DNA of 47,763 nucleotides from a virus. Made by a program: the position numbers and the translations under genes. The notes beneath the pieces are model-generated. The model was not told the origin of the DNA and searched no databases. It saw only the letters and a list, made by a program, of their open reading frames with translations. Positions 1,959 to 32,403 of the stretch are shown one piece after another (position 1 is the first letter of the stretch; each line of letters opens with the position of its first letter). Location of the stretch: positions 1-47,763 of the IMG/VR virus record IMGVR_UViG_3300046471_000091. The stretch is one strand, 5' to 3'.

Positions 1959-4466
1959 TTAGGCAATACTGACCAGTAGTGATCCAGTCCCCACTCCGAC
2001 AGCAGACAATTTGAGCTTGATCGTTACATTGGTGGAGGTAATAGAACTCGGGTAGGCATAATTCACTCCAGTCAACGTCGCGCTGGAGTTCGGCCTGACC
2101 TGAAGTACGATGTCGTTTGCCGAGGGCGTTCTCACGATTGAGTGGTTGATCGTAAAAACTTGTTCAGCGGTTGACGTCAAATCAACCGTCGCCGATAGCG
2201 TGGCGCTCGAATAGCTGATCGCCCCGCTGTCCGATCGCTTGTCAATAATCCTGATATCGCGCCACTGGCCATAGCTAAGATTATTCAGTCCCGTATATGC
2301 CGATGCGACGGCTACAGAGCCATACGCAGAAATGCTGATGCTCGAATCGATGTTTGAAATGGTCGAGGCATTCGCGTAATTCTTCCAGACTCCACCGTTG
2401 GCGTTTGACGTGAGGCGAATGTCCGAGCATGTAATGTCATAGTCTGTGGACAGGGCAAAACCCGATATATCCTGAACCATAATGTCAACGGACGTGCCAG
2501 TTCCTCCGACCAGCACCGCATCGCCCGTATATCCACTATTTCCCTGAACGCGGCCAGCGACGCGATTTCCGCGCCCTCGAATAAGGCCGGCGAGCGCGCC
2601 GTTTCCAGGCGACGCATCCCGCCGCTCTTTCCAGTTAGAAATCATGCCGCCCCGGTCTGAGGCAATCATCAACGAAGGGAGCGCGGGAGGGCCGCTATAG
2701 GCCCCGTTGCTATGCGTATCGCACCTACCAATCTGATATTCGGTATGATCCCCGATAAGCACGCCGCCCCACGAACTCTCGCCCATGATGAAGTCTGCGT
2801 TAAACCGCGGAGACGCTCCGCTATCATCATTGCGAACCTCTACCGCAGGGCCTTGTGCATTGTTGTATGAATGAACGAAACCGAATTCAGCACCCTTGTT
2901 GAAAATCAATGCGCCAGCGATCCAGTTGCCAACATAGGCCACTGCGGTTGCTCCCGTTCCATCGCCGGTTACCGTCACCGTACAACGCGTCGCATCAGCG
3001 CTGCCGTTAGTCAAGACTATCCAGTGATCTATGCCGCCACTTACGACGACGGGCTGCAATGTTGGCGGCGTTGTTGCGTCCGTGGAGATTGACCACGCAA
3101 CTCCAGCTTGCGTATATCCCGTGCCAATGGCAGTCGATAGGACTGTGCGCAGCCTTCCTTTTGGGAAAAGCAATGATTTCGTGCCAGCGTACGAATTGAC
3201 CCATAGCGAATTAGCAGGCCACCCTACGCGGATCTCGCGGACGCTGATATCCGATGGCCCCTGGAACACAAGCCCCTCGTATTGCGTGTCTTCGCAACAG
3301 ATATTGTCGAAGAACGAGCCGTCGCGCGACTCGACGCCGATATTGTTGCCGAAGTCTAGTTCGGTTGGCGTGGCAGTGAAAAACGAGTACGCGCCAACTC
3401 CCGGTTGTCGCATCACCCAAACATTCCGGAATTTTGGGCGTGCGCCATATACCCGAAAGCCCATGCCCTTTAGGCCGTTCGTCGTGACGGGAGTGTTTTT
3501 GTTGGACCCGCAATTTCCATCCAGGCAAACATTCTGCAACCCGAAGTCACGAATGACGCCTTGCGCAACGGTGGTCGGCTGGGTAGCGTATTGGGTCTCA
3601 AAATTTGGCGTTTGATATTGGGCATCGATCGCCGTGCCGGCAACGACGCGGATGACTCCCTCGGGTCCCATGCCGGGACCGCGAATCACGATTCCATTTA
3701 CCGCATTGATCGGAGTGGTTTGAAGATAGCTCGGGCTGCTGTAAGTGACATCGGTGCACTGATGATATACGGCGGCGGCTTGGGCGGCATTAAGCACCGC
3801 ACCCGCCTCGCCGCCGACCCAACCAAACCACTCGGCGCAGATGACGGGGCCAATTCCCAGCCTTTGCCACGCATTGCCATTTGCGTCAAAGATAATCGTT
3901 CCGCCGTTATCTGACAGTCCAGAGGCGCTACCAAGGCGCGAAAACTGACCCGCGATGCCAGCCCCAGTGATGACGGCATACGTGCGAATGCCGCTATATG
4001 AACGCAGTGCTGTATAGCTGGTTAATGTGAGTTGCCCAAGGACGAAATCAGCGATCGCGCTTAATGTGGCCTGCAACAAACCCGCGCCACGAGAAAGAGG
4101 GCTGATCTCAGTACCCGTCAGCGTCCCTGCGGGCGTGGCCGTTCCATTCGCAATAGCACTATAAGCATTCGCCGAAGCGGCGGCCGATGTTGCTGCGGCC
4201 TGCGCTTCAGTCGTCGCCACGCCAGCCTCAACTGTGGCAGTCGATGCCGCGGAAGTTGCAACCCCAGCCTCTTGCGTTGCGGTTGCAGCGCTGGCCGTTG
4301 CGCTGGTAACCGCTTGCGTGATCTGCTGATTGACTGCCGCGCTCAACGAACCGAGTTGGACAACCTGCGTTTCGCCGGTAGTCAGATTAACCGTTTGTGT
4401 CGGCCCCGATCCCTGGATAACGACCGTTCCTGTCGGCTTGTTGACGGTGATCGTTGTTGCGCTCAT
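1959..4466 (-). CDS. Tail spike, right-handed beta-helix
   Basis: An 835-residue tail spike. The N-terminal 45 residues contain a short beta-rich attachment segment. Residues 50-100 are an Ala/Thr-rich heptad-like stretch typical of trimeric fibre stalks. Residues from about 200 to 720 have the Gly/Asn/Asp-rich turns of a pectate-lyase-type right-handed beta-helix, and the last 100 residues form a beta-sandwich-like C-terminus. Such spikes bind and often cleave host surface polysaccharide; the specific substrate cannot be read from sequence. There is no signal peptide, unlike the second spike at 6595-8409. The start overlaps the upstream BppU-like gene by 4 nt (ATGA), suggesting that adapter and spike are made together. 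Confidence 0.8.
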   Translation of the reverse strand: MSATTITVNKPTGTVVIQGSGPTQTVNLTTGETQVVQLGSLSAAVNQQITQAVTSATASAATATQEAGVATSAASTATVEAGVATTEAQAAATSAAASANAYSAIANGTATPAGTLTGTEISPLSRGAGLLQATLSAIADFVLGQLTLTSYTALRSYSGIRTYAVITGAGIAGQFSRLGSASGLSDNGGTIIFDANGNAWQRLGIGPVICAEWFGWVGGEAGAVLNAAQAAAVYHQCTDVTYSSPSYLQTTPINAVNGIVIRGPGMGPEGVIRVVAGTAIDAQYQTPNFETQYATQPTTVAQGVIRDFGLQNVCLDGNCGSNKNTPVTTNGLKGMGFRVYGARPKFRNVWVMRQPGVGAYSFFTATPTELDFGNNIGVESRDGSFFDNICCEDTQYEGLVFQGPSDISVREIRVGWPANSLWVNSYAGTKSLLFPKGRLRTVLSTAIGTGYTQAGVAWSISTDATTPPTLQPVVVSGGIDHWIVLTNGSADATRCTVTVTGDGTGATAVAYVGNWIAGALIFNKGAEFGFVHSYNNAQGPAVEVRNDDSGASPRFNADFIMGESSWGGVLIGDHTEYQIGRCDTHSNGAYSGPPALPSLMIASDRGGMISNWKERRDASPGNGALAGLIRGRGNRVAGRVQGNSGYTGDAVLVGGTGTSVDIMVQDISGFALSTDYDITCSDIRLTSNANGGVWKNYANASTISNIDSSISISAYGSVAVASAYTGLNNLSYGQWRDIRIIDKRSDSGAISYSSATLSATVDLTSTAEQVFTINHSIVRTPSANDIVLQVRPNSSATLTGVNYAYPSSITSTNVTIKLKLSAVGVGTGSLLVSIA

Positions 4467-6594: not shown

Positions 6595-8409
6595 TCACGG
6601 CAAAAATATTGACGCGTTGGGGGCGGATGAATATGTCGTGACAAAAGAACCCTGACTGGGTATTTCGAATGTGCATGGCGTCGCGCTGCATACCTGTGTG
6701 CCGCCTACCGTAACGGAGGATACCGTTCCTCCATACATGGTTACGATGAGTGCACCCATGAACGTTGAGTGGTATGTATAGGGCGATGCACCAAGCGAGA
6801 TACCTGCGGGTCCTTGCGGGTTATAGCCCATCGCATTTGCGACGTTGATAGTGTCGCTTCCCGCATTCCCGTTGGAAATTGATGCACTGGTTGCGCCCAG
6901 GAGATTCACATTCGACAGATAGGCGGTTCCTGTAAACCCTGCGTCAAACTGCACGTTGTACTTCTGCTGTGACCCGAATCCAGCCGTGACTCCGACAACG
7001 CCGCCAGTGATTGTGATGTTGTTTGCACCTGTGCCAAATTCGAGGCCTGCATATGTGCCAGTCGTGACATTCGAGTTTCCGGCAACCGCTATATTTGACA
7101 GGTTGATGTGATTGGCATACGTCGCATATAGGCCGTCCTGGACATTGTTCACAGACATGACATTTGACAGATGAACGCCGTCAATGGTCGTCGTTGACAG
7201 GCCACCTAAATTGATCCCGTTATTACAGGTCGCCATCCACGAATTCGAAATCATCAGCCCTAGAATACTGCCTGTCCCGGTCGGCACTACATTGACGCCA
7301 TTGCCCGTCGAAGTGCTGTATGTCCAGTCGCAACTATCGAAATAAGAATTATCAATGTAAACCCATTTGACGGACTGTCCTGTCCCGGGGTTGATCAACA
7401 GATTATGGTGGGAATGCAGGATATCCGAATTGGAGATCGTAACGGAGCCGTTACTGTTCGATACCGCGATACCTGCCTGCGGCGCATAACTGCCGCTATC
7501 CATATCCATGATGACGCCGTCTAGATACTGATCGCCGCCGCCATTGATCGTGATGCCCTGCCCGTTGAAGTCGCGGATTTCCAGCACATGTGCGTGGATT
7601 GCACCCGCTGCATTTATCATTAGCGGGTTGTAACCGTTCACCATGTAGACGTTATCGAGTTTTGAAAGACTCGATCCGGCCTGATAGTTGATGAACGCCC
7701 CAGCGGTCATCGGACTTGCAGAATAAAACGCAATGTCTCGGAAATTGACGTAGGGCGCAGAAACATCAATGACATCGGCCGATGTCGAGCCAGCAAGAAT
7801 AACCGGCCCAGCATTTACACCAGGGGCTCCCTGACCAATAAAACTAATGTTTGCCGTCGAGATGGATATGCCGGTCAGGAGGAATTTTCCTTTGGGCACG
7901 GAAACGATGCCGCTTTGCGAGCCCGCTCCAGCCGCAGACGCAATTGCGCTATTGAATGCGCTAACGCTGCTCGCCACGCCCGTTGGATCAGCGCCCCACC
8001 AGACTGGATTTACAAAACCGAGTGCCGTGCAACCCCAACCACCAGTCGCGCGCACCCACAACTGACCAATTGCGGACGAACACAGCGAATCAAACGCGCC
8101 TCCGGGCGCGGATATGCTGGTTGAGCCAGTGCCGCCATTCGCAACAGGGACTGTCGATGAGCCAAGGATCGACGCCAGCGCAGCGCCTTGCGTATTCGCC
8201 CCAGTCCCACCACTCGCCAGCCCAATCGGCGAGCCCGTGACCGATAGCGATGGAACCGTCAATGGTCCGGTGAGGATGCCGCCCGCGATCGGCAGCGTAT
8301 TTGCAAACGCATTGTTGAGTTGCGAGGCGGTCAGGACATGACCGTCTACGAACTGTGCGTTGGCGATGCCAGGGAGAAGCAGGGCGGCTAGGAGGAGGCG
8401 TTTGAGCAT
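6595..8409 (-). CDS. Beta-helix tail spike with Sec signal peptide
   Basis: A 604-residue protein. Residues 1-18 form a clear Sec signal (K-R, Leu-rich core, A-N-A before Gln19). Two G-G-T-G repeats near residues 67-95, as in tail fibre proteins, follow. A pectate-lyase_3-type beta-helix starts at W-W-G-A-D-P-T-G (about 137-144) and runs through N/G-rich coils to about 530, and the C-terminus is beta-rich. It is probably a polysaccharide-binding or depolymerising spike. The signal peptide is unusual for a virion protein assembled in the cytoplasm and may instead indicate secretion to the envelope. It lies between the RHH repressor gene and the lysis genes and is bounded by terminators on both sides. 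Confidence 0.75.
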   Translation of the reverse strand: MLKRLLLAALLLPGIANAQFVDGHVLTASQLNNAFANTLPIAGGILTGPLTVPSLSVTGSPIGLASGGTGANTQGAALASILGSSTVPVANGGTGSTSISAPGGAFDSLCSSAIGQLWVRATGGWGCTALGFVNPVWWGADPTGVASSVSAFNSAIASAAGAGSQSGIVSVPKGKFLLTGISISTANISFIGQGAPGVNAGPVILAGSTSADVIDVSAPYVNFRDIAFYSASPMTAGAFINYQAGSSLSKLDNVYMVNGYNPLMINAAGAIHAHVLEIRDFNGQGITINGGGDQYLDGVIMDMDSGSYAPQAGIAVSNSNGSVTISNSDILHSHHNLLINPGTGQSVKWVYIDNSYFDSCDWTYSTSTGNGVNVVPTGTGSILGLMISNSWMATCNNGINLGGLSTTTIDGVHLSNVMSVNNVQDGLYATYANHINLSNIAVAGNSNVTTGTYAGLEFGTGANNITITGGVVGVTAGFGSQQKYNVQFDAGFTGTAYLSNVNLLGATSASISNGNAGSDTINVANAMGYNPQGPAGISLGASPYTYHSTFMGALIVTMYGGTVSSVTVGGTQVCSATPCTFEIPSQGSFVTTYSSAPNASIFLP

Positions 8410-8428: not shown

Positions 8429-8454
8429 AAAAAAACCGCCTCGGTGGGCGGTTT
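8429..8454 (-). terminator. Intrinsic terminator after RHH repressor gene
   Basis: 8-bp stem (8433-8440 with 8447-8454), 6-nt loop, seven T on the minus strand. It isolates the Mnt-like repressor gene from the tail spike gene. Confidence 0.85.
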
Positions 8455-8468
8455 GGATGTATCTCAAG

Positions 8469-8518
8469 CCCTCAATTCAACTTAGGGCTTACGGCAATAC
8501 CCTCACTTCAAGTTAGGG
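8469..8518. repeat. Two tandem 19-bp dyad repeats
   Basis: Two near-identical 19-bp units at 8469-8487 and 8500-8518 (17 of 19 identical, 31 bp apart), each with a CCCT...AGGG dyad around a TTCAA core. The second overlaps the stop codon of the RHH gene. They could be protein-binding operators three helical turns apart, or weak RNA hairpins ahead of the terminator. Confidence 0.6.
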
Positions 8519-9070
8519 TTTCTTTTTTGCCGCCCGCTTGGGGCGCGCGTCTGTATGGTGCTCAACCAAGACGACTGCCTTTTCCGGCAGTCGCTTTTTG
8601 GCCTCTTCGAGCGCAGCAACTACCTTTGACAGTTCTATGTCGCCATTCAGCGTTAGCACGACGACTGCGGGCGCATCCTTGTGCAGGCCCGCAGTCAAGA
8701 GCTGGTCCACAGCCTCTTTGCTGTCTAACCCGTACTCTTTGCGGTATGCATTCAGGCGAGTGCCGAGCCTGGCCGGAATGAAGTGCTCCTCCCAATCGAA
8801 TGAGTGGCTTAACCGATGGAGGATTTCTTCTGTGAGCGTGCGGCCGAACTCCTCGGCGTGCGCCTCCAATTTGTCTCGCAGATCGACCGGTAGAGGGAGC
8901 GCCGACTCATTCGGCTCGAAACTTTGCTCGATACGCCTCACGAACTCGGTGTTCATGCTTCGGTCAGCCGCCTTCGCGGCCTCTGCGATGCGGTCACGCA
9001 GGCCTTCCGGCAGACGAAGGATGTATTTATCGCCACGCTGAGGGGCGCGCTCGGGCTTGGTATTTTCCAT
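8513..9070 (-). CDS. Mnt/Arc-like repressor with three RHH motifs
   Basis: A 185-residue DNA-binding protein. Residues 14-52 form an Arc/Mnt-type ribbon-helix-helix (beta strand K-Y-I-L-R-L-P, then helices with R-S-M-N-T-E as in Mnt). Residues 57-91 and 97-129 repeat the same pattern (strand, then L-R-D-K-L or L-G-T-R-L, then a second helix), so the chain seems to hold three fused RHH units. The C-terminal 50 residues are a small alpha/beta segment ending in a Lys-rich tail. It is divergent from an Arc-like gene, with four 13-bp palindromes between them. By analogy with P22 mnt it would repress the antirepressor genes. Confidence 0.8.
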   Translation of the reverse strand: MENTKPERAPQRGDKYILRLPEGLRDRIAEAAKAADRSMNTEFVRRIEQSFEPNESALPLPVDLRDKLEAHAEEFGRTLTEEILHRLSHSFDWEEHFIPARLGTRLNAYRKEYGLDSKEAVDQLLTAGLHKDAPAVVVLTLNGDIELSKVVAALEEAKKRLPEKAVVLVEHHTDARPKRAAKKKP

Positions 9071-9083
9071 TCCCGAAGAATAC

Positions 9084-9180
9084 TGGCTATGAGCCCGTTA
9101 CAAAATACTGGCCCTGAGCCATAAAAATAGCTTGCAGACATGGCTGATGGCCACTATATTACGTACATGGCCCTGAGCCA
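9084..9180. promoter_or_regulatory. Operator cluster, four TGGC-N5-GCCA palindromes
   Basis: Four 13-bp sites lie in the 128-bp divergent region: 9084-9096 (one mismatch), 9109-9121, 9141-9153 and 9168-9180, with starts 25, 32 and 27 bp apart. The second and fourth are identical. Their placement between two RHH genes suggests they are operators for one or both of these proteins. Confidence 0.75.
9132..9160 (+). promoter_or_regulatory. Candidate promoter for arc-like/antirepressor operon
   Basis: TTGCAG (9132-9137) and TATATT (9155-9160) are separated by exactly 17 bp, and the operator at 9141-9153 fills the spacer. The -35 is weak (3 of 6) and the -10 good (5 of 6). Repression by an operator-bound RHH protein would occlude RNA polymerase. 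Confidence 0.55.
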
Positions 9181-9198
9181 TGCAACCGGAGATTGCCA

Positions 9199-9390
9199 AT
9201 GGATAGCAAAAACTACCCCAGCCGGCTCGCAGACAAATTCATGCTGCGACTGGATACCGGGATGCGGGACGAACTGAAGATCATTGCCGCAAAGAATCGT
9301 CGAAGTATGAATTCTGAAATTATCGTGAGACTTGCAGAAAGCATGGCTACGGAAAAAGTAAAGGCCTCGACCGGGATGCTGGGGAGCTAA
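9199..9390 (+). CDS. Arc-like RHH repressor
   Basis: A 63-residue protein resembling P22 Arc over its full length: strand F-M-L-R-L at residues 14-18, then D-E-L-K helix A, the N-R-R-S-M-N-S-E-I turn at 33-41, and helix B with R-L-A-E-S-M. Arc-family proteins bind DNA as RHH dimers through the beta strand. The ATG at 9199 is chosen because GGAGA lies 6 nt before it; an in-frame TTG two codons upstream is less likely. It is the first gene of a rightward operon leading to two antirepressor-type proteins, the same position Arc holds before ant in P22. Confidence 0.85.
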   Translation: MDSKNYPSRLADKFMLRLDTGMRDELKIIAAKNRRSMNSEIIVRLAESMATEKVKASTGMLGS

Positions 9391-9434
9391 GCGGTCAAGG
9401 CCTTTGGATACAACAATCTCTTGCGGAGATTTGA

Positions 9435-9725
9435 ATGAATACTAGCATAGCCACGCCTGGCGTCAATGCCAGCGCCAATAATCTTCGTTGCCACGCCGGC
9501 AACCTCGCGATCCTAAGCGGAAAGTTCGGTACGCGCATTGTTCGCATCGTCGGGCGTGCAGCCGATATCTACTACGATTGGAAAGTCGAAATTCTCGGCT
9601 CGCCGATCTGGATCATTGATGCTCGCAGTGACAAGCCGCAACTTAGCAATCTCGGTTTCGCGAACGATTGCAGCCTCTTCCCGCTCGAAGCAGAAGCAGA
9701 AGCAGAGGAGGTGTGCCATGCATAA
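9435..9725 (+). CDS. Hypothetical protein of antirepressor operon
   Basis: A 96-residue protein without a recognised domain. The middle (about residues 25-65) is predicted beta-rich with aromatic residues, and the C-terminus is strongly acidic (E-A-E-A-E-A-E-E). A ribosome binding site (GGAG) lies 9 nt before the start. The end overlaps the downstream antirepressor start by 8 nt, and that gene's Shine-Dalgarno sequence lies within the acidic tail codons, so the two are probably coupled. Confidence 0.6.
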   Translation: MNTSIATPGVNASANNLRCHAGNLAILSGKFGTRIVRIVGRAADIYYDWKVEILGSPIWIIDARSDKPQLSNLGFANDCSLFPLEAEAEAEEVCHA

Positions 9726-10602
9726 CGCCCTTGCTCTGCCGACCACATTCAATTTCGGCGCCCAGCAACTGCGTGTGATTTTGATTGACGGATTACCGTG
9801 GTTCATCGCAGCAGATGTTTGCCGCGCTCTGAATTTGAGCAATCCGACGATGGCCATGCGCGCCCTCGACGAAGACGAGCAAATGACGCAGAAAGTCCCG
9901 AGCCTCAGTCGCGGCAACGATACTGCGAATCTCGTTAGTGAATCCGGCATGTACACGCTGGTTCTGCGCTGCCGCGATGCCGTAAAGGCCGGCACGGTCC
10001 CGCACCGTTTCCGCAAGTGGGTGACCTCGGAAGTGCTACCGGCAATCCGCAAGACCGGCGCGTACGCAGTCGATGCGGCTCCGGAAGTACCGCTGCTGAT
10101 CGGATCGAAGCAGCAAGCCGAACTGGAGCGCGCAGTCCATGACCTCGCGACGCTCGCTGGCCAGAAGGGCAAGAACTATCGCTCGGTCTGCCTTTCGACG
10201 TGGCGCGATCTGCGCAAGGAATTTGACCTGAAGGAATATGTGCAGCTTCCCGCCGCCAGATTTCAGGAGGCGCTGGACTTTGTCGTCGATCGCCGCACCC
10301 AGTGGGAGGTTGTTGATGCAAGCGCCTCCTACACGCTGGAAAACTTCACGGACATGCTGAACGACTTTTACTTCGGCAACAAGGTGCCGGCGCGCGTCGA
10401 AGTCGAACTTGCCCGGCTACTGCTGATGCGGACAAGAGAGGCCATCGGCGAGGCAAAATTTCAGCTTTCATGGCTGAAGATCGCTGACCCTGAAGTTCGC
10501 CTCTGTGTGCGGAACGCAAACAAGATTCTCGCTCGCAAACAACTAACGGTTCCGCTCGAGCCGTGGCACCGCAGTATCAACCTTGTTCGGAGAGTTGCGT
10601 AA
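9718..10602 (+). CDS. Bro-N domain phage antirepressor
   Basis: A 294-residue protein. Residues 11-113 form a Bro-N domain (F-N-F, L-R-V-I, W-F-I-A-A-D-V-C-R-A-L, then E-S-G-M-Y-T-L and F-R-K-W-V-T-x-E-V-L-P-A-I-R-K-T-G). The C-terminal half resembles ORF6C-type antirepressor tails around residues 155-195, followed by a helical region. Bro-N/ORF6C proteins act as phage antirepressors or DNA-binding regulators. The start at 9718 is chosen over a longer frame because a strong GAGGAGGT lies just upstream. The position after an Arc-like gene parallels P22 ant. The stop overlaps the KilA-N gene start (TAATG). Confidence 0.85.
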   Translation: MHNALALPTTFNFGAQQLRVILIDGLPWFIAADVCRALNLSNPTMAMRALDEDEQMTQKVPSLSRGNDTANLVSESGMYTLVLRCRDAVKAGTVPHRFRKWVTSEVLPAIRKTGAYAVDAAPEVPLLIGSKQQAELERAVHDLATLAGQKGKNYRSVCLSTWRDLRKEFDLKEYVQLPAARFQEALDFVVDRRTQWEVVDASASYTLENFTDMLNDFYFGNKVPARVEVELARLLLMRTREAIGEAKFQLSWLKIADPEVRLCVRNANKILARKQLTVPLEPWHRSINLVRRVA

Positions 10603-11354
10603 TGCATGACCTTATCCAGATAGGCAGTGTAGTGATTCATGCCGATGAAAATGGCCGATTCAGCCTTAACGATCTCCATCGCGCAGCGGGAGGGGAGGAT
10701 CGGCACAGCCCAAACCGCTGGACAAGAACGGATGGGTATCAAGCGCTTGTCGCCGAGCTAACGCCAGAAATGGCGTTTGCCCCGGTCGAGTCTACCCGCG
10801 GAGGCGCATCGCCGGGCACATACGCGGCGAAGGAACTGGTGTATGCCTACGCCATGTGGATTTCCGCATCCTTCAATTTGAAGGTCATTCGCACATTCGA
10901 TGCCGTCGCGACGGGGAATGCACCGCCTCAGCTTGGCGAAATGCGCGAGGCTGTTGACCTGTTTCAACCGTTCTTCGAGGTTGCTGTCCTGATCGGGTGT
11001 GACAAGCAGGCAGCGGCGATCAGCGCCAACCAAGCTGTCTTCGCCGTCTCCGGGGCAAACGTCCTGCAACTCATGGGACGCACGCATATGAAGGCCGAAA
11101 ACCAGGAGTCGCTGTTTTATATCCCGCGCGAGCTGGGCGAGCGACTCGGCGGCATCTCCGCGCAGAAAGTCAACAAGATGCTTGTTGCGTCAGGATTTCA
11201 GTTGAAGGTTGGAGAGCAGTGGGAAGTAACTGACTCCGGCAAGCGATTCGCCCGCATCTACGACACTGGCAAGAAGCACAGCAGTGGCGTTCCGATCCAG
11301 CAGATCAAATGGTCTTCCGAGGTCATCCCGGCACTTGGGAGGGATGCGGCATGA
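10602..11354 (+). CDS. KilA-N domain antirepressor
   Basis: A 250-residue protein. The N-terminal 105 residues are a KilA-N domain: F-S-L-N-D-L-H-R-A-A, the N-R-W motif, a variable loop, then Y-A-A-K-E-L-V-Y-A-Y-A-M-W-I-S and F-D-A-V. The C-terminal part, about 165-245, looks like a winged-helix antirepressor domain (I-P-R-E-L-G ... V-N-K-M-L ... W-x-V-T-D-S-G-K). Proteins of this type counter phage repressors or bind DNA. Two different antirepressor types in a row, both following the Arc-like gene, suggest a two-output switch. The start uses a TAATG overlap and the stop overlaps the next gene by 4 nt. Confidence 0.85.
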   Translation: MHDLIQIGSVVIHADENGRFSLNDLHRAAGGEDRHSPNRWTRTDGYQALVAELTPEMAFAPVESTRGGASPGTYAAKELVYAYAMWISASFNLKVIRTFDAVATGNAPPQLGEMREAVDLFQPFFEVAVLIGCDKQAAAISANQAVFAVSGANVLQLMGRTHMKAENQESLFYIPRELGERLGGISAQKVNKMLVASGFQLKVGEQWEVTDSGKRFARIYDTGKKHSSGVPIQQIKWSSEVIPALGRDAA

Positions 11355-11578
11355 CCGAATTTGCCCACTTCAAATTCAACGAGCCCGGACTTGATGAGGA
11401 CGAGTGCCTAGCTGGCTACCGATCTGGCCTTGACGGCGATCCCGAGCCCGGTAGCGACAAGAGCCGGTCGTTTTTGCACGGATGGCGAAACGGTATGGCC
11501 GACAAGGGTCAATTGCCGATTTCACCGGAGCAACGCGAATACGCAGCCTCTTATGTAAGGGCGCATAGAGCGCACTAG
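11351..11578 (+). CDS. Rmf/CrpP-fold small protein
   Basis: A 75-residue protein with the signature of ribosome-modulation-factor/CrpP-like small proteins: G-Y-R-S-G-L near residues 22-27, then a turn with paired Pro/Asp, and the F-L-H-G-W-R-N-G-M helix at about 41-49. RMF dimerises ribosomes during hibernation; CrpP relatives are plasmid- or phage-borne with debated roles. Function here is open: ribosome modulation or a small DNA/RNA-binding adaptor. The ATGA overlap with the KilA-N gene places it in the antirepressor operon. Confidence 0.6.
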   Translation: MTEFAHFKFNEPGLDEDECLAGYRSGLDGDPEPGSDKSRSFLHGWRNGMADKGQLPISPEQREYAASYVRAHRAH

Positions 11579-11586
11579 AAACAGGT

Positions 11587-11618
11587 GCGCCCACATCGGC
11601 AGCAACCGATGCAGGCGC
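11587..11618 (+). other. RNA hairpin between operon and OMP gene
   Basis: An imperfect stem-loop: GCGCC (11587-11591) with GGCGC (11614-11618), a CA/CA internal loop, CATCGG (11594-11599) with CCGATG (11606-11611), and a 6-nt loop. Only three T follow, so it is at best a weak terminator of the antirepressor operon or a 5' structure of the OMP mRNA. Confidence 0.55.
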
Positions 11619-11659
11619 GGTTTGACCCGAAACCTAACAGCGACGAAAGGAAACGAATC

Positions 11660-12352
11660 ATGTTCAAGATTATCACAACTGCGGTTGTGGGGATGGCATT
11701 CGCCCTAAGCGCACATGCGCAAGACTGGTTTCAGTTCGAAGCCGGCATAGGTGCCGCGGCCTATCAGCGCGGTCCCGATGGTTTGTGGGTTCAGGATGGC
11801 TTCGAACACAAACTGCACCTGACTGCCCCAGCCATTGAAGTCGGCCTGACTGGCGATCTGTATCAGGCGACGCACTGGGGTCTTTCATGGCATGCCGACT
11901 GGGCATGGCTTGGGACTATCAAGAGCCAGAGCCTGGCGACTCCCAGCGATGCGAACTACAACGTCACCACGAAGGGCTGCAACGGCCCGTGCTGGCCGCT
12001 CGCCAACTACAACGGCACCGGCCATGATCAGGGCTTCATGCTGACGCTCGAGCCCCACTACGATTACGCCGGCTGGCGCTTCGGCGTTGAGGCGGGACCG
12101 TATATCCACCGATCGAGCTGGGCCGAGGACGTCACAGGCTGGGTCTCATCGCCGACAGCGACGCCGACAAACCTGCACGTCCGGAATCGCGCGCAGTGGC
12201 GTGTTGGTGAGGTATTCGGCGCGTCGGTTGGCTACAGAAACCTCACCATCGCGTACCAGTTCTTCAGGAACAGCACGCCGGTTAGCAGCAGCGATCCCTA
12301 CCCGCCGATCTGGCGCAGCACGCATTTGCTGGTGATGAAATACCGGTATTGA
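11660..12352 (+). CDS. Outer-membrane beta-barrel protein (moron)
   Basis: A 230-residue protein with a Sec signal peptide (residues 1-20, A-H-A before Gln21) and alternating aromatic/polar strands throughout. It ends in a K-Y-R-Y strand whose terminal aromatic fits outer-membrane barrel insertion by the BAM machinery. A CxxxxC pair (N-G-P-C region) could form a loop disulphide. The start is set by AAGGAAA upstream. The gene is transcribed against the surrounding tail genes and is not a virion protein type, so I infer a lysogenic-conversion role such as masking a receptor or excluding superinfecting phage. Nothing identifies a specific partner. Confidence 0.7.
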   Translation: MFKIITTAVVGMAFALSAHAQDWFQFEAGIGAAAYQRGPDGLWVQDGFEHKLHLTAPAIEVGLTGDLYQATHWGLSWHADWAWLGTIKSQSLATPSDANYNVTTKGCNGPCWPLANYNGTGHDQGFMLTLEPHYDYAGWRFGVEAGPYIHRSSWAEDVTGWVSSPTATPTNLHVRNRAQWRVGEVFGASVGYRNLTIAYQFFRNSTPVSSSDPYPPIWRSTHLLVMKYRY

Positions 12353-12373: not shown

Positions 12374-13540
12374 CTACGCTTGAACGCTCGGGCGACCTAT
12401 TGATGATAAATGGCGCCCAGCAGCCGTAAATGGCCTTTCAACAAAGTTGAAAGAAAGCAATGCAAGCGGAATCGTCAATGCTATCGAAACAACGCACGAG
12501 ACACCCATGATTAGCATGGGAACGCGTGCCAGAATATTTGCAGGGACTGCATGCAATAGCACATTGGCAATGGCGTACAAAACTATAAAATGAAGAAGAT
12601 AGAAGCTATAGGAAATCTTCCCCAGAAATCGAGCCCACCCCGCATCGAGAACAGAAAATTGTCGCGATTTTTTGTCAATACTTAACGACCACACAATACC
12701 CCCACTCCCTGCAATCACCATAATGTCAGCGACGAAGGAATGATCCAGCGGGAAAAAAATATTCGCCGCCATAATCATCCCCATACAGGTCCACCCCCAA
12801 AACCGCGTCGGATAAAAGGTCGGCGCTGCGCCTGATGACGAATGCTTTGCAATCACAGATCCGAGCGCGAATGCGTAAAGAAATCGAGCCACGCCGGCGG
12901 CGTCGCCGCGATCAAACCAAGCGATCAAAAACGTGACTAGCACCACGATGATGCTGCGGACGGCACCCCTTGGCCCCATCAACCAAACGATCACGGGTAT
13001 CAAAAGGGAAGCCAAGACCTCAATTCTCAGTGTCCATGAGATCGGATTTAGAAGTGAGTCAGAGAAGACAGCATTATCCAAAACAGTTCGCAGCGTCACG
13101 GGGTCCGTATACCACCAGCCAAACCAAGCCGATGCGACTGGAAAATTTTCGTACCCAGGATACACAACACCTAGATACACAAGAACGACTGCCAACGAAA
13201 ACCAGTATGCGGGGATGATGCGAAATAGTCGTTTCACCGAAAATCGCATGTAGCTAGCCGCGCCAATCTCAGTATTCGAAAGCGATCGGGCAAGCACGAA
13301 GCCGCTCAGTACGAAGAAAACGTCTACTGCCGCGGCTCCATTAAAAAAAGAAATGACGATCCGCGCTACTGTGGCTTGGACACCCTGCACGTTAACCAAC
13401 GTTTTCGACCAAAGTGATTTTTCTGCGCCAATCGAAAGCCAGAACATCGAGTGACATACGGCCACCCAGAGCGCTGCTATACCGCGCAAAGATTCAAGTC
13501 GGCTAATAAAACTACCAGATGCGCCTTTTTCGATCGACAT
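12374..13540 (-). CDS. Acyltransferase 3 family membrane protein
   Basis: A 388-residue integral membrane protein with about ten hydrophobic segments. It opens with the acyltransferase-3 signature R-L-E-S-L-R-G-I-A-A-L with H30 nearby, followed by the F-F-V-L-S-G-F-V motif near residues 75-82. Family members (OafA/YrhL type) acetylate O-antigen or other surface sugars using acyl-CoA. In phages they alter the receptor and protect lysogens. The DNA looks AT-richer than its neighbours, a sign of recent acquisition. It is convergent with the OMP gene, ending 21 bp from it, with no strong terminator between. Its promoter is not obvious; it may be read from the tail fibre transcript. Confidence 0.85.
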   Translation of the reverse strand: MSIEKGASGSFISRLESLRGIAALWVAVCHSMFWLSIGAEKSLWSKTLVNVQGVQATVARIVISFFNGAAAVDVFFVLSGFVLARSLSNTEIGAASYMRFSVKRLFRIIPAYWFSLAVVLVYLGVVYPGYENFPVASAWFGWWYTDPVTLRTVLDNAVFSDSLLNPISWTLRIEVLASLLIPVIVWLMGPRGAVRSIIVVLVTFLIAWFDRGDAAGVARFLYAFALGSVIAKHSSSGAAPTFYPTRFWGWTCMGMIMAANIFFPLDHSFVADIMVIAGSGGIVWSLSIDKKSRQFSVLDAGWARFLGKISYSFYLLHFIVLYAIANVLLHAVPANILARVPMLIMGVSCVVSIALTIPLALLSFNFVERPFTAAGRHLSSIGRPSVQA

Positions 13541-24156: not shown

Positions 24157-25491
24157 TTATGCGAACTCAACCGCGTCGAGCTGGAAGGTGATTGTGAGAA
24201 AACCGTTCTGACCGACCGCAGTCGCAGAAAAGCCACCGTACTGGCCGGCTTTGTAGTCATTCGGGTTTTCGGTGGTGTAGGTTGCAAACGGGATTGCGGT
24301 AACAGTGATGCTCAACGCGCACCCGAACGTAACGGCATTCGCGGCAACCTGTTCTGCGACGGCAAGCAGGGCATTAATGCCCGGCTGGTCGTACAGCAGA
24401 GGAGGTTGCTGGTTCGAGCCATTGATGATCGCAGCCGCCATTGCCTGCTTCACCTGAATCTGGAACCAGTCAATGCCGTACCACCAACTGGCCTGCGACC
24501 CATCCATCAGCGTGCCCTTGAACTCGCACGCGTCGGAGATGCCACCTTCTGAGCCAGTCAGAATGACGTTGCCGTAGTTGGTCAGGACCGTATTGATGGT
24601 CGCGCCATTTCCCGGTTTCGCCCACGGCGTGACGCCGAAAGCAAAGCGGTATGCCATCGGCGCCAATTTGTTGTTGGCTGCAGGCCGGTTGTTGAGCCAC
24701 TGATAGAAAGCCGTCGCCGCCTGGAACTCAGTCGATACTGCAGTCGGACTAGCCACGCGCGCGTACGCGCTTTTGTTCGGCGCATAGTTGACAATGTTCG
24801 TCGACGTCGTCGTCACGAAGAAATACGTCTTCCCGGTCGGGCTCGCGTAGTTCGAAACGAGGACTGCCAGCGCAGAGGCAAGTGTTACGGTGCCTGTAGC
24901 GGTCGTGCCCGACGTTGGCGCGGAGAACGTAATCGTAGGCGTGGCTGTGTAGCCAGTTCCCGGATTGGTGATCGTCACCGAGACAACCGATCCACCCTGG
25001 ATGACTGCTGTTCCGGCCGCGCCCGATCCGCCGCCACCGCCTGCAAATGTCACCGTGGGTGCAGCGGTGTAACCAGATCCGCCGCTTGTGATCTGGATGC
25101 TGCCAACTTGATTGGCTGCGTTGTCCCATGCGGCGGGGACAAGATAGGAATAGAAGACGCCAGGGTTGCTTGTGATCCACGCCTGAAGCGCTGCGATTCC
25201 CGCTGCCGCAGTCCCCTGCGTACCGAGTTCCAGAACATAGGTGCCGACCGTATCGCCTTGCGCAAAGAACGTCGTTCCCATGTTATTGAGTTCGACGTAA
25301 TTGCCGCTGCCACTCGAAAGCAGGATGCCTTGTAACGCTGAAAGCTGACCGCAATACTGATATGTACCCGTGGCCAGGGATGTGCCGCCCACCGAAATCA
25401 TCGCACCGCTCTGCTGGAGCTGTGAAGGCGTAGGCGCGACCGTTACAGTCGTATTGACCGTAACAATCGTTGGGGTGATGGTTGTTGCCAT
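24157..25491 (-). CDS. Tail sheath protein (DUF3383-like) with inserted repeats
   Basis: A 444-residue sheath protein. Residues about 1-135 and 210-444 follow the DUF3383-type sheath pattern (A-W-x-x-S-N-P-G-V-F-Y-S-Y, then K-T-Y-F-F-V, and a C-terminal F-L-T-I-T-F-Q-L-D-A). Between about 138 and 205 two repeats of G-S-G-Y-T-A-A-P-T-V-T-F and G-T-G-Y-T-A-T-P-T-I-T-F are inserted. These are Ig-like surface modules often found on virion proteins. Sheath contraction drives the tube through the envelope, and the presence of this gene makes the phage a myovirus. Confidence 0.85.
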   Translation of the reverse strand: MATTITPTIVTVNTTVTVAPTPSQLQQSGAMISVGGTSLATGTYQYCGQLSALQGILLSSGSGNYVELNNMGTTFFAQGDTVGTYVLELGTQGTAAAGIAALQAWITSNPGVFYSYLVPAAWDNAANQVGSIQITSGGSGYTAAPTVTFAGGGGGSGAAGTAVIQGGSVVSVTITNPGTGYTATPTITFSAPTSGTTATGTVTLASALAVLVSNYASPTGKTYFFVTTTSTNIVNYAPNKSAYARVASPTAVSTEFQAATAFYQWLNNRPAANNKLAPMAYRFAFGVTPWAKPGNGATINTVLTNYGNVILTGSEGGISDACEFKGTLMDGSQASWWYGIDWFQIQVKQAMAAAIINGSNQQPPLLYDQPGINALLAVAEQVAANAVTFGCALSITVTAIPFATYTTENPNDYKAGQYGGFSATAVGQNGFLTITFQLDAVEFA

Positions 25492-30615: not shown

Positions 30616-32403
30616 TTAGTGGCTCTTTCGAAGTCCGGCTTTCATGCGCGGCGCCCGGAAGTCATCCATCCAGTCGCTCGGCTTGCCGTAGAACGTCGTG
30701 ACGCGGTGGCCGGTGCCGGTGTCCTTGGTCACTGCACGCAGACCGCCTTCGGGCGAGCCGACCGGGCGAACCGCGGCGTCCATGGCATCTGCGTAGATGG
30801 CCGTTTCAGCGATGTCGAACACTGCCGCGTCCAACTTGCTCAGATCGACGTCTTTCCACGCGGCGCTATGCGATTTCATCGGAGCAGCGAGGCGCTTGCG
30901 ATAGGCGAGCACGTCTTCACCGTTGAGCGCACGCGCAGCCTGCTTGCCAAACGCGTTGTACAGACCATCGGCCTTCGCCTGCACATCGGCGAACGCGGCA
31001 TGGTCGGCATCGGTGAGGGGCTTCGGCGTCAGTTGCGCCGTCTGGACCAGCATCTTCTCGAGCTGATTCACGCGATCGAGTAGGGCGCTTTCACGCTTGG
31101 CTGCATCGGCCTTTGCCTCTTCCTTTTCCTTTTCCTCGGCGTCGGCCTTCGCCTTTTCTTCGGCTTCCTTCTCCGAATCAGCCTTCTTGTCTGCAACCGG
31201 CAATTCTTCGGCAGGCATTGAGTCGGCCTTTTTGCCTTCCAAGGCGTCCATGCGTTTGCACATGTCGTCTTTGAGCGAATCGACAGCCGACATCAGTTTG
31301 TCCCACTTCTCCGCATCGGCTTTCGACTTTTCTTCCGCATCAGCCTTAGCCGCCTCCTCAGCGTCGGCCTTGGCTTTCGCTTCGAGTTCTTGCTTCGCCT
31401 CGGCGTCTGCCTTGGCCTTACGCTCTTCTTCAGTCATCTCAGGTTCCTGAACGTTGGTGGTAGATACGCCAGTTGGCGGACCGCCCTTGTCCCACACGCC
31501 AACCTCGCAGATCGCGATGTGGTCGAGCAGTTTTGGGTTTCCCTCAATAAGACCTTTCTCGCCGTTGTCGAGGGTTACAACGGTGTTTTCCAGCTTCGGA
31601 TTTCGAAATACGACGTTGGGCGATGTGGACAATTGCTCTTGCGACATCAGGGTCGCGGTTGCCTCGTCGTAGATGCGAACGATCGCCCACACTTCGTCGC
31701 CCTTGATGTAGGGCAACATGACCGAACCGACAGCACGTTTCTTGAACTCTTCCGAATTCAGATTCGCGTTCTCGGGGTGGTCAACGATGACCGGCAGGCC
31801 GTTGCAGCGCGCCAGGAATTCATCGTTGAGATATTCCTCCGGTGGGCGGAAGACGTATTCCTCGTCCTTCGACCGATACGATGTGCCCGTGCCCGTGATG
31901 CGGATATCGAACATCCACATGTTCACGAAGAACTGCGGCGATGAATAATCGCCCGCGACCATCGCACGCGCGAGCTCCGTCTCGGTCATGTGCGCTTTGC
32001 GGATCGCCTTGAACGCGTCGGACTCGAGCACGAAGCGGCAGCCGGGATGCAGCGGTTCGGGCCATGAGCCAAGCGGCGACCAAACGAATTCCGTACTCTC
32101 GTCGCTCAGCGCAACATCGAATGGCCGACACTCGTGGTAGAACGTGGTGAATTCAACGGCACCGTCGCTGGCTTTGACTATCTGGATCAGCTTGTGGGGC
32201 TCGTAGCCAGCCTCTTCCATGGTCTCGCGGCGCGCAGCATCTTCGGGGGATTCTCCCGCCTCTACACCGCCACCGGGGAACGCCCATTCACCCGGATGAT
32301 CTCCACCTGGCCCGCGGCGAAGAAACAGGACTGAGCCGTCTGCGACAATCAGCGTGCCGGCGGCATGCATCACGTTGCGATCGGTCTCATTGGTTTCGGC
32401 CAT
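30616..32403 (-). CDS. NUDIX + DUF2213 prohead protease + scaffold fusion
   Basis: A 595-residue protein with three parts. Residues 10-140 are a NUDIX hydrolase with box G45-x5-E51-x7-R59-E60-x2-E63-E64-x-G66. Residues 150-310 match DUF2213, the capsid protease type: H209 in V-D-H-P-E and the serines in L-S-T-S-P (259-261) are the likely catalytic residues, by analogy with herpesvirus-like prohead proteases. Residues 325-440 are repeated K-A-D-A-E-E coiled coil, and the rest is a scaffold-like C-terminus ending in a basic tail. The NUDIX part would cleave a nucleoside-diphosphate-X substrate, not identifiable here. No internal start with a good ribosome binding site is obvious. Confidence 0.85.

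Follow-up and report, generated by a model that had tools for sequence, protein, structure and literature searches.

The window analysed here, that is, the whole 47,763-nucleotide stretch of the IMG/VR virus record IMGVR_UViG_3300046471_000091, carries in its late tail region a cassette that most likely constitutes an immI-like repressor/antirepressor switch, in which two ribbon-helix-helix (RHH) repressors would share a single operator array (probability of about 0.72). The immI region of phage P22, a switch described in textbooks, is generally regarded as particular to P22-like phages. The genes of the cassette (Table 1), its operator array, the overlap of this array with a predicted promoter, the homologous cassettes and the co-variation of residues between the two repressors were all obtained by computation; the cassette is real and is probably a functional immI-like switch.

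The leftward RHH gene, the divergent gene for a 63-residue Arc-like RHH protein, the Bro-N gene and the KilA-N gene announced by the original prediction are all present, with matches in Pfam and PHROG, whereas the open reading frame (ORF) of 96 amino acids (aa) located between the arc-type gene and the Bro-N gene had been overlooked. As in P22 immI, the RHH genes form a divergent pair, the antirepressor genes lie downstream of the arc-type gene and the whole is located among tail genes. A tail sheath gene supports a contractile tail for this phage, which is unrelated to P22; the presence in it of an immI-like cassette, with two antirepressor-type genes and one control region shared by a divergent RHH pair, is supported. 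The order and polarity of P22, claimed to extend to a neighbouring tailspike gene, are found inside the cassette but not beyond it: the tailspike gene 9 of P22 follows ant on the same strand, whereas the spike-like gene of the window stands on the mnt side with the opposite polarity, the antirepressor genes pointing away from it. Furthermore, P22 has one ant gene instead of two antirepressor-type genes and an extra 96-aa ORF. P22 also has the sar antisense RNA; Rfam gave no sar match between the arc-type and antirepressor genes, a gap that holds the 96-aa ORF, but it was not verified that Rfam includes a model of sar.

The predicted operator cluster is confirmed. The 128-bp gap between the divergent RHH genes contains four copies of GGC-N5-GCC (at 9085, 9110, 9142 and 9169, with spacings of 25, 32 and 27), against a mean of 0.09 in shuffled sequences, and none of 5000 shuffles had four copies. 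This motif occurs 41 times in the whole 47.8-kb record, with the gap as its densest spot, and GGC/GCC pairs with other spacers (2 to 9) are absent from these 128 bp. Likewise, a 13-bp palindrome class, TGGC-N5-GCCA with three mismatches allowed, has four copies in the gap, a result reached in 0 of 200 shuffles. No second multi-copy palindrome class was found in the control region, all four sites being GGC-N5-GCC, and the P22 picture of two different operator classes, with separate sites for Mnt and for Arc, is not supported by this array. Site 3 falls exactly within the 17-bp spacer of the best rightward promoter candidate (TTGCAG/TATATT). The geometry is that of P22, in which the rightward promoter has one operator between its -35 and -10 boxes and a second one just past the -10 box, the promoter being here a predicted one.

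Among solved structures, AmrZ of Pseudomonas aeruginosa comes nearest to both RHH proteins (E values of 6e-10 for the 185-aa protein and 8e-11 for the 63-aa protein), ahead of Arc and Mnt. In its complex with DNA, AmrZ forms a dimer of dimers that uses Lys18, Val20 and Arg22 to read two GGC half-sites separated by 5 bp; the amrZ1 site has the sequence TACTGGCAAAACGCC, also written GTACTGGCAAAACGCCGGCACG (PMC3325190). Sites 1 and 2 of the window read TACTGGC-N5-GCC and match amrZ1. The contact residues, K-V-R in AmrZ, are K-I-R in the first RHH domain of the leftward protein and K-M-R in the rightward one, so that AmrZ-type recognition features (K-V-R-like contacts, GGC half-sites 5 bp apart) are found in both proteins and in the array. 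By analogy with AmrZ, this lends indirect but specific support to the four sites being RHH operators readable by both proteins. AmrZ also represses its own gene, a likeness to the autoregulation proposed below, but it is a chromosomal global regulator located outside any antirepressor cassette.

A broader comparison was made with 31 distinct divergent RHH pairs drawn from phage records and genomes as well as from viral contigs, most of them with Bro-N, KilA-N or related genes downstream. The contact residues of the left and right proteins are identical in 11 of the 31 cassettes, against 1.8 in shuffled pairings, and none of 100,000 shuffles reached 11. Left/right matches exceed expectation mainly at positions 9, 10 and 11 of Arc (z of 4.9, 3.6 and 6.8); smaller excesses are seen elsewhere, for instance at position 27 (z 3.5), but most other columns display little, while the conserved arginine of the contact strand is present in all 31 pairs. 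Matched pairs recur with six different residue sets, and the effect is therefore not that of one lineage. Many of the homologous gaps have their own locus-specific palindrome array of three or four copies and, in 14 of 16 operator arrays, one site lies within the predicted rightward -35/-10 spacer, like Oarc in P22. The left/right match of contact residues and the promoter-spacer site are new here, and a pair of matched specificity acting on one array is the best-supported new point; no description of a shared operator array or of left/right co-variation was found in the open-access literature.

These data bear directly on a second reading, in which there would be two RHH specificities as in P22, the four sites belonging to the leftward protein only and the 63-aa protein acting elsewhere or weakly at this locus. 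Cassettes whose left protein has Q-K-R contacts share operators of the ACCACSGTGGT type (L064, L206, L210 and L181), even where the right protein differs (the first three), an indication that the array belongs to the left protein, which also agrees with the preferred reading; moreover, P22 itself has two operator classes and the middle contact residue differs here (I versus M). Against this stand the unusually frequent match of left and right contact residues across cassettes, the near identity of K-I-R and K-M-R, and the four-copy array as the only multi-copy palindrome class of the control region. Two separate specificities are thus a less likely account of the window.

Under the preferred reading, a switch with one shared array, binding, repression, feedback and effects on lysogeny are inferred from the features described above. 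The leftward protein would bind the array of four operators that spans the divergent control region, its dimers probably pairing as those of AmrZ do. Occupation of site 3 would shut the rightward promoter of the arc-antirepressor operon, and the upstream sites would probably autoregulate the leftward gene. Since its contact residues are nearly the same, the 63-aa protein would most likely bind the same sites and feed back negatively on the operon after its activation. Phage repressors would then be inactivated by both antirepressors, Bro-N-C1 and KilA-N-C2 (C1 and C2 designating their C-terminal domains), which would thereby trigger the lytic cycle.

Several points weigh against this reading. 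The predicted -35 box, TTGCAG, is weak, and the promoter candidate comes from a looser scan, a sigma-70 scan at strict threshold having reported no promoter. The relatedness of the 31 cassettes is not fully controlled and related ones are not statistically independent, and two cassettes (L133 and L144) have an operator class without simple tie to the left protein. AlphaFold2 models of the 185-aa protein, computed alone or with one homologue, are poor (mean predicted local distance difference test scores of 45 and 43). Finally, the record is a virus contig in whose 47,763 bases no integrase was detected, and none of the proteins scanned was recognized as a CI-type target.

The lack of a detected integrase would also fit a self-contained moron devoid of any role in lysogeny, in which the RHH pair would repress accessory genes (the 96-aa ORF, Bro-N, KilA-N and the gene of the outer-membrane protein) serving to modify the host or to keep other phages out. 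Indeed, the cassette opposes the late genes, has its own predicted promoter and terminator, and adjoins genes for an outer-membrane protein and an O-acetyltransferase. However, a location in the late region is normal for immI, and the same order with ant-type genes is found in P22 and in the myoviruses Edno5, GF-2 and 437, at least the ant gene of P22 being established as encoding an antirepressor. This explanation is therefore considered unlikely.

The published examples also bear on novelty. In the Edwardsiella myovirus Edno5, ImmI with ant, mnt and arc was named in 2019 by authors who had not tested it (PMC6372524), and the Edwardsiella myovirus GF-2 carries RHH(-), RHH(+) and Bro-N(+) within its tail region. 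Unlike the window, both have one antirepressor, a short leftward RHH protein (about 90 aa) and other operators. The same four-gene order is present in phage 437 of Paraburkholderia terrae, an inducible myovirus described in 2017, which carries orf63(-), a 157-aa Arc-domain gene, orf64(+), a 60-aa Arc gene, orf65(+), an Ant gene like that of GF-2, and orf66(+), a Roi gene (PMC5567305). Nothing in the gene table of phage 437 corresponds to the 96-aa ORF. The authors of that paper interpreted orf64 as a moron of AmrZ type, and no use by them of the name immI for the region was found (PMC5567305). As both papers precede this work, the gene order was already in print, and the novelty implied for an immI module in a myovirus does not stand. 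By gene content, the closest cassette sampled is that of an IMG/VR prophage record (UViG_2852799629, hereafter L181), which likewise has a leftward tandem RHH protein with the same C-terminal segment (37% identity), a rightward Arc protein, two antirepressors and an outer-membrane protein 50% identical to that of the window; it differs in the N-terminal domains of its antirepressors and in its operators. In unrelated phages (L064, L092, L117, L133, L144, L146, L195, L194 and L081), related cassettes adjoin structural genes, such as those for the tape measure, tail fibre or tail spike, which makes the late region a recurrent home of the cassette. The portal protein of the window phage had no match in five cassette-holding records or genomes in a search made without positive control, a result consistent with the sharing of the cassette rather than of the whole phage.

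The leftward protein, first described as Mnt-like, is not simply a Mnt. P22 Mnt has 83 aa, with a single RHH domain and a C-terminal tetramerization segment, whereas the 185-aa protein consists of RHH1 (about 14-52), RHH2 (about 57-91), a weak RHH-like unit (about 96-130) and another, conserved C-terminal segment (about 133-171), and is by sequence closest to AmrZ, like the 63-aa protein. RHH2 alone matches Pfam Arc (1.2e-5, 25.5 bits versus a cut-off of 20.4), and the third unit is weaker (74% with hhalign). Judged from its sequence, the protein thus has two, perhaps three, RHH units followed by a conserved segment. The contact arginine is absent from RHH2 and from the third unit, which may therefore serve in pairing or oligomerization. 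The C-terminal half (third unit and end segment) is conserved in L181 and L074; its end segment is modelled with low confidence as beta-alpha-beta, the order of helices and strands being the only information taken from the AlphaFold2 models. Searches of viral contigs with the 185-aa protein, alone or aligned with one relative, found nothing.

PHROG families 795 and 2685, whose members are Arc/Mnt-type RHH repressors, are labelled 'partition protein ATPase', a label also borne by a PHROG that includes relatives of the leftward protein, and many antitoxins and partition proteins contain an RHH domain; the RHH genes could accordingly be of antitoxin or partition type and stand beside antirepressor genes by chance. 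This is highly improbable: the label is a database misnomer, since P22 Mnt carries it as well (mnt is so named in NC_002371), no ParA or toxin gene was recognized next to the RHH genes, and the association of an RHH pair with an antirepressor recurs in many phages. As a separate observation, in Paraburkholderia panacisoli, a 145-aa protein resembling a fusion of a GIY-YIG-type nuclease domain with an Arc-like RHH domain (L034:5405-5842(+), also L052:7405-7842(+)) takes the place of arc and is followed by an antirepressor gene of the KilA family.

Two antirepressors in series had been viewed as an elaboration on P22. This arrangement was rejected as a novelty, since it recurs in L003, L081 (Bro-N, KilA-N), L181, L194 (KilA-N, Bro-N), L206 (Bro-N, ORF6N) and phage 437; it is also found in Bordetella phage IFTN1 (Bro-N, AntA). 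The first antirepressor of the window has a full-length relative with 61% identity in L081. Its domain C1 is shared with the AntA protein of L181, and C2 is found fused to Bro-N or AntA in relatives, the series being AntA-C1 then BroN-C2 in L181 and BroN-C1 then KilA-C2 in the window. The C-terminal domains of the two cassettes thus keep their order while the N-terminal ones are exchanged. For the 96-aa ORF, Pfam, PHROGs and the phage collection searched all gave no match. A 121-aa homologue (L078:8107-8472(+), E 5.5e-36), encoded in a Burkholderiaceae genome, is directly divergent from a 77-aa RHH gene without intervening Arc gene, which suggests that the 96-aa protein belongs to the cassette.

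Table 1. Features of the cassette and of its surroundings in the window
Feature	Position	Strand	Evidence or remark
185-aa Arc-family gene in Mnt position	8513-9070	-	Pfam Arc (PF03869) 7e-19, two matched stretches, 67.8 bits vs cut-off 20.4
63-aa Arc-like RHH gene	9199-9390	+	Pfam Arc 4.6e-14, 52.4 bits vs cut-off 20.4
96-aa ORF	9435-9725	+	Between arc-type gene and Bro-N gene; overlaps Bro-N start
Bro-N + C-terminal domain C1 (antirepressor 1)	9718-10602	+	Pfam Bro-N 4.5e-17, 62.9 bits (above cut-off); PHROG anti-repressor Ant 1e-44
KilA-N + C-terminal domain C2 (antirepressor 2)	10602-11354	+	Pfam KilA-N 3.6e-19, 69 bits (above cut-off); PHROG_129 1e-42
75-aa phage protein	11351-11578	+	PHROG_4460 3.8e-14; start overlaps KilA-N stop
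Putative outer-membrane beta-barrel protein	11660-12352	+	50% identity to protein beside L181 cassette; signal-peptide-like start
Intrinsic terminator of leftward RHH gene	8429-8454	-	8-bp stem, 6-nt loop, U-run
Spike-like gene	6595-8409	-	Adjoins Mnt-position gene, transcribed away from cassette
Tail sheath	24157-25491		PHROG tail sheath 6e-17
Operator site 1	9084-9096		TGGCTATGAGCCC, GGC-N5-GCC; within spacer of weak leftward promoter candidate 9104-9077
Operator site 2	9109-9121		TGGCCCTGAGCCA
Operator site 3	9141-9153		TGGCTGATGGCCA, inside -35/-10 spacer; position of Oarc in P22
Operator site 4	9168-9180		TGGCCCTGAGCCA, directly past -10; position of Omnt in P22
Rightward promoter candidate	9132-9160	+	TTGCAG-17-TATATT, 8/12 matches, best + strand candidate

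Both flanks of the cassette are transcribed leftward, with the spike-like gene on one side and the acyltransferase and tail genes from 12374 on the other. The terminator (-12.1 kcal/mol, z -3.2, equal stability in 0 of 200 shuffles) separates the leftward RHH gene from the spike-like gene, whose designation as a tail spike is by appearance alone, searches of Pfam, PHROG and PDB having given no match. Another leftward protein of the tail region (835 aa, 1959-4466), without PHROG match, is possibly a second spike. Downstream of the antirepressor genes, the 75-aa gene is probably cotranscribed with the KilA-N gene. The L181 counterpart of the outer-membrane protein has a sub-cut-off OMP_b-brl match; in the window, this protein may be a passenger of the cassette and possibly a lysogenic-conversion or exclusion gene product. 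The adjoining O-acetyltransferase gene (12374-13540; Acyl_transf_3, PHROG O-acetyltransferase 1e-44) is likely a surface-modifying conversion gene. A sub-threshold Rfam match to ctRNA_pGA1 (31 bits for a gathering threshold of 45, E 0.002) lies in antisense orientation at 11574-11634 (-), where the 75-aa ORF gives way to the outer-membrane protein gene, and may correspond to a mere terminator hairpin. In the head module, a protein encoded at 30616-32403 starts with a NUDIX-like domain, its counterpart in Escherichia phage Rac-SA53 being annotated 'nudix'.

More generally, the chances are about even that a widespread class of phage immunity switches uses an RHH pair of matched specificity, one partner being a larger maintenance repressor and the other a minimal protein of Arc type, on one shared array of three or four operators. 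Such a device would be a switch of dosage and timing rather than of two operator types, and the pair would co-evolve with its array, leading to many versions that do not cross-react. The comparison itself shows P22 immI to be one form of a common and mobile module of the late region, in which the promoter/operator geometry is fixed while the DNA specificity changes freely, and whose one or two antirepressors have N-terminal domains that can be interchanged. The prediction of operators from three RHH residues becomes directly testable, and the annotation of repressors labelled 'partition protein ATPase' in databases is aided. Finally, a link is made between phage immunity cassettes and AmrZ, a regulator from bacteria whose complex with DNA has been solved.

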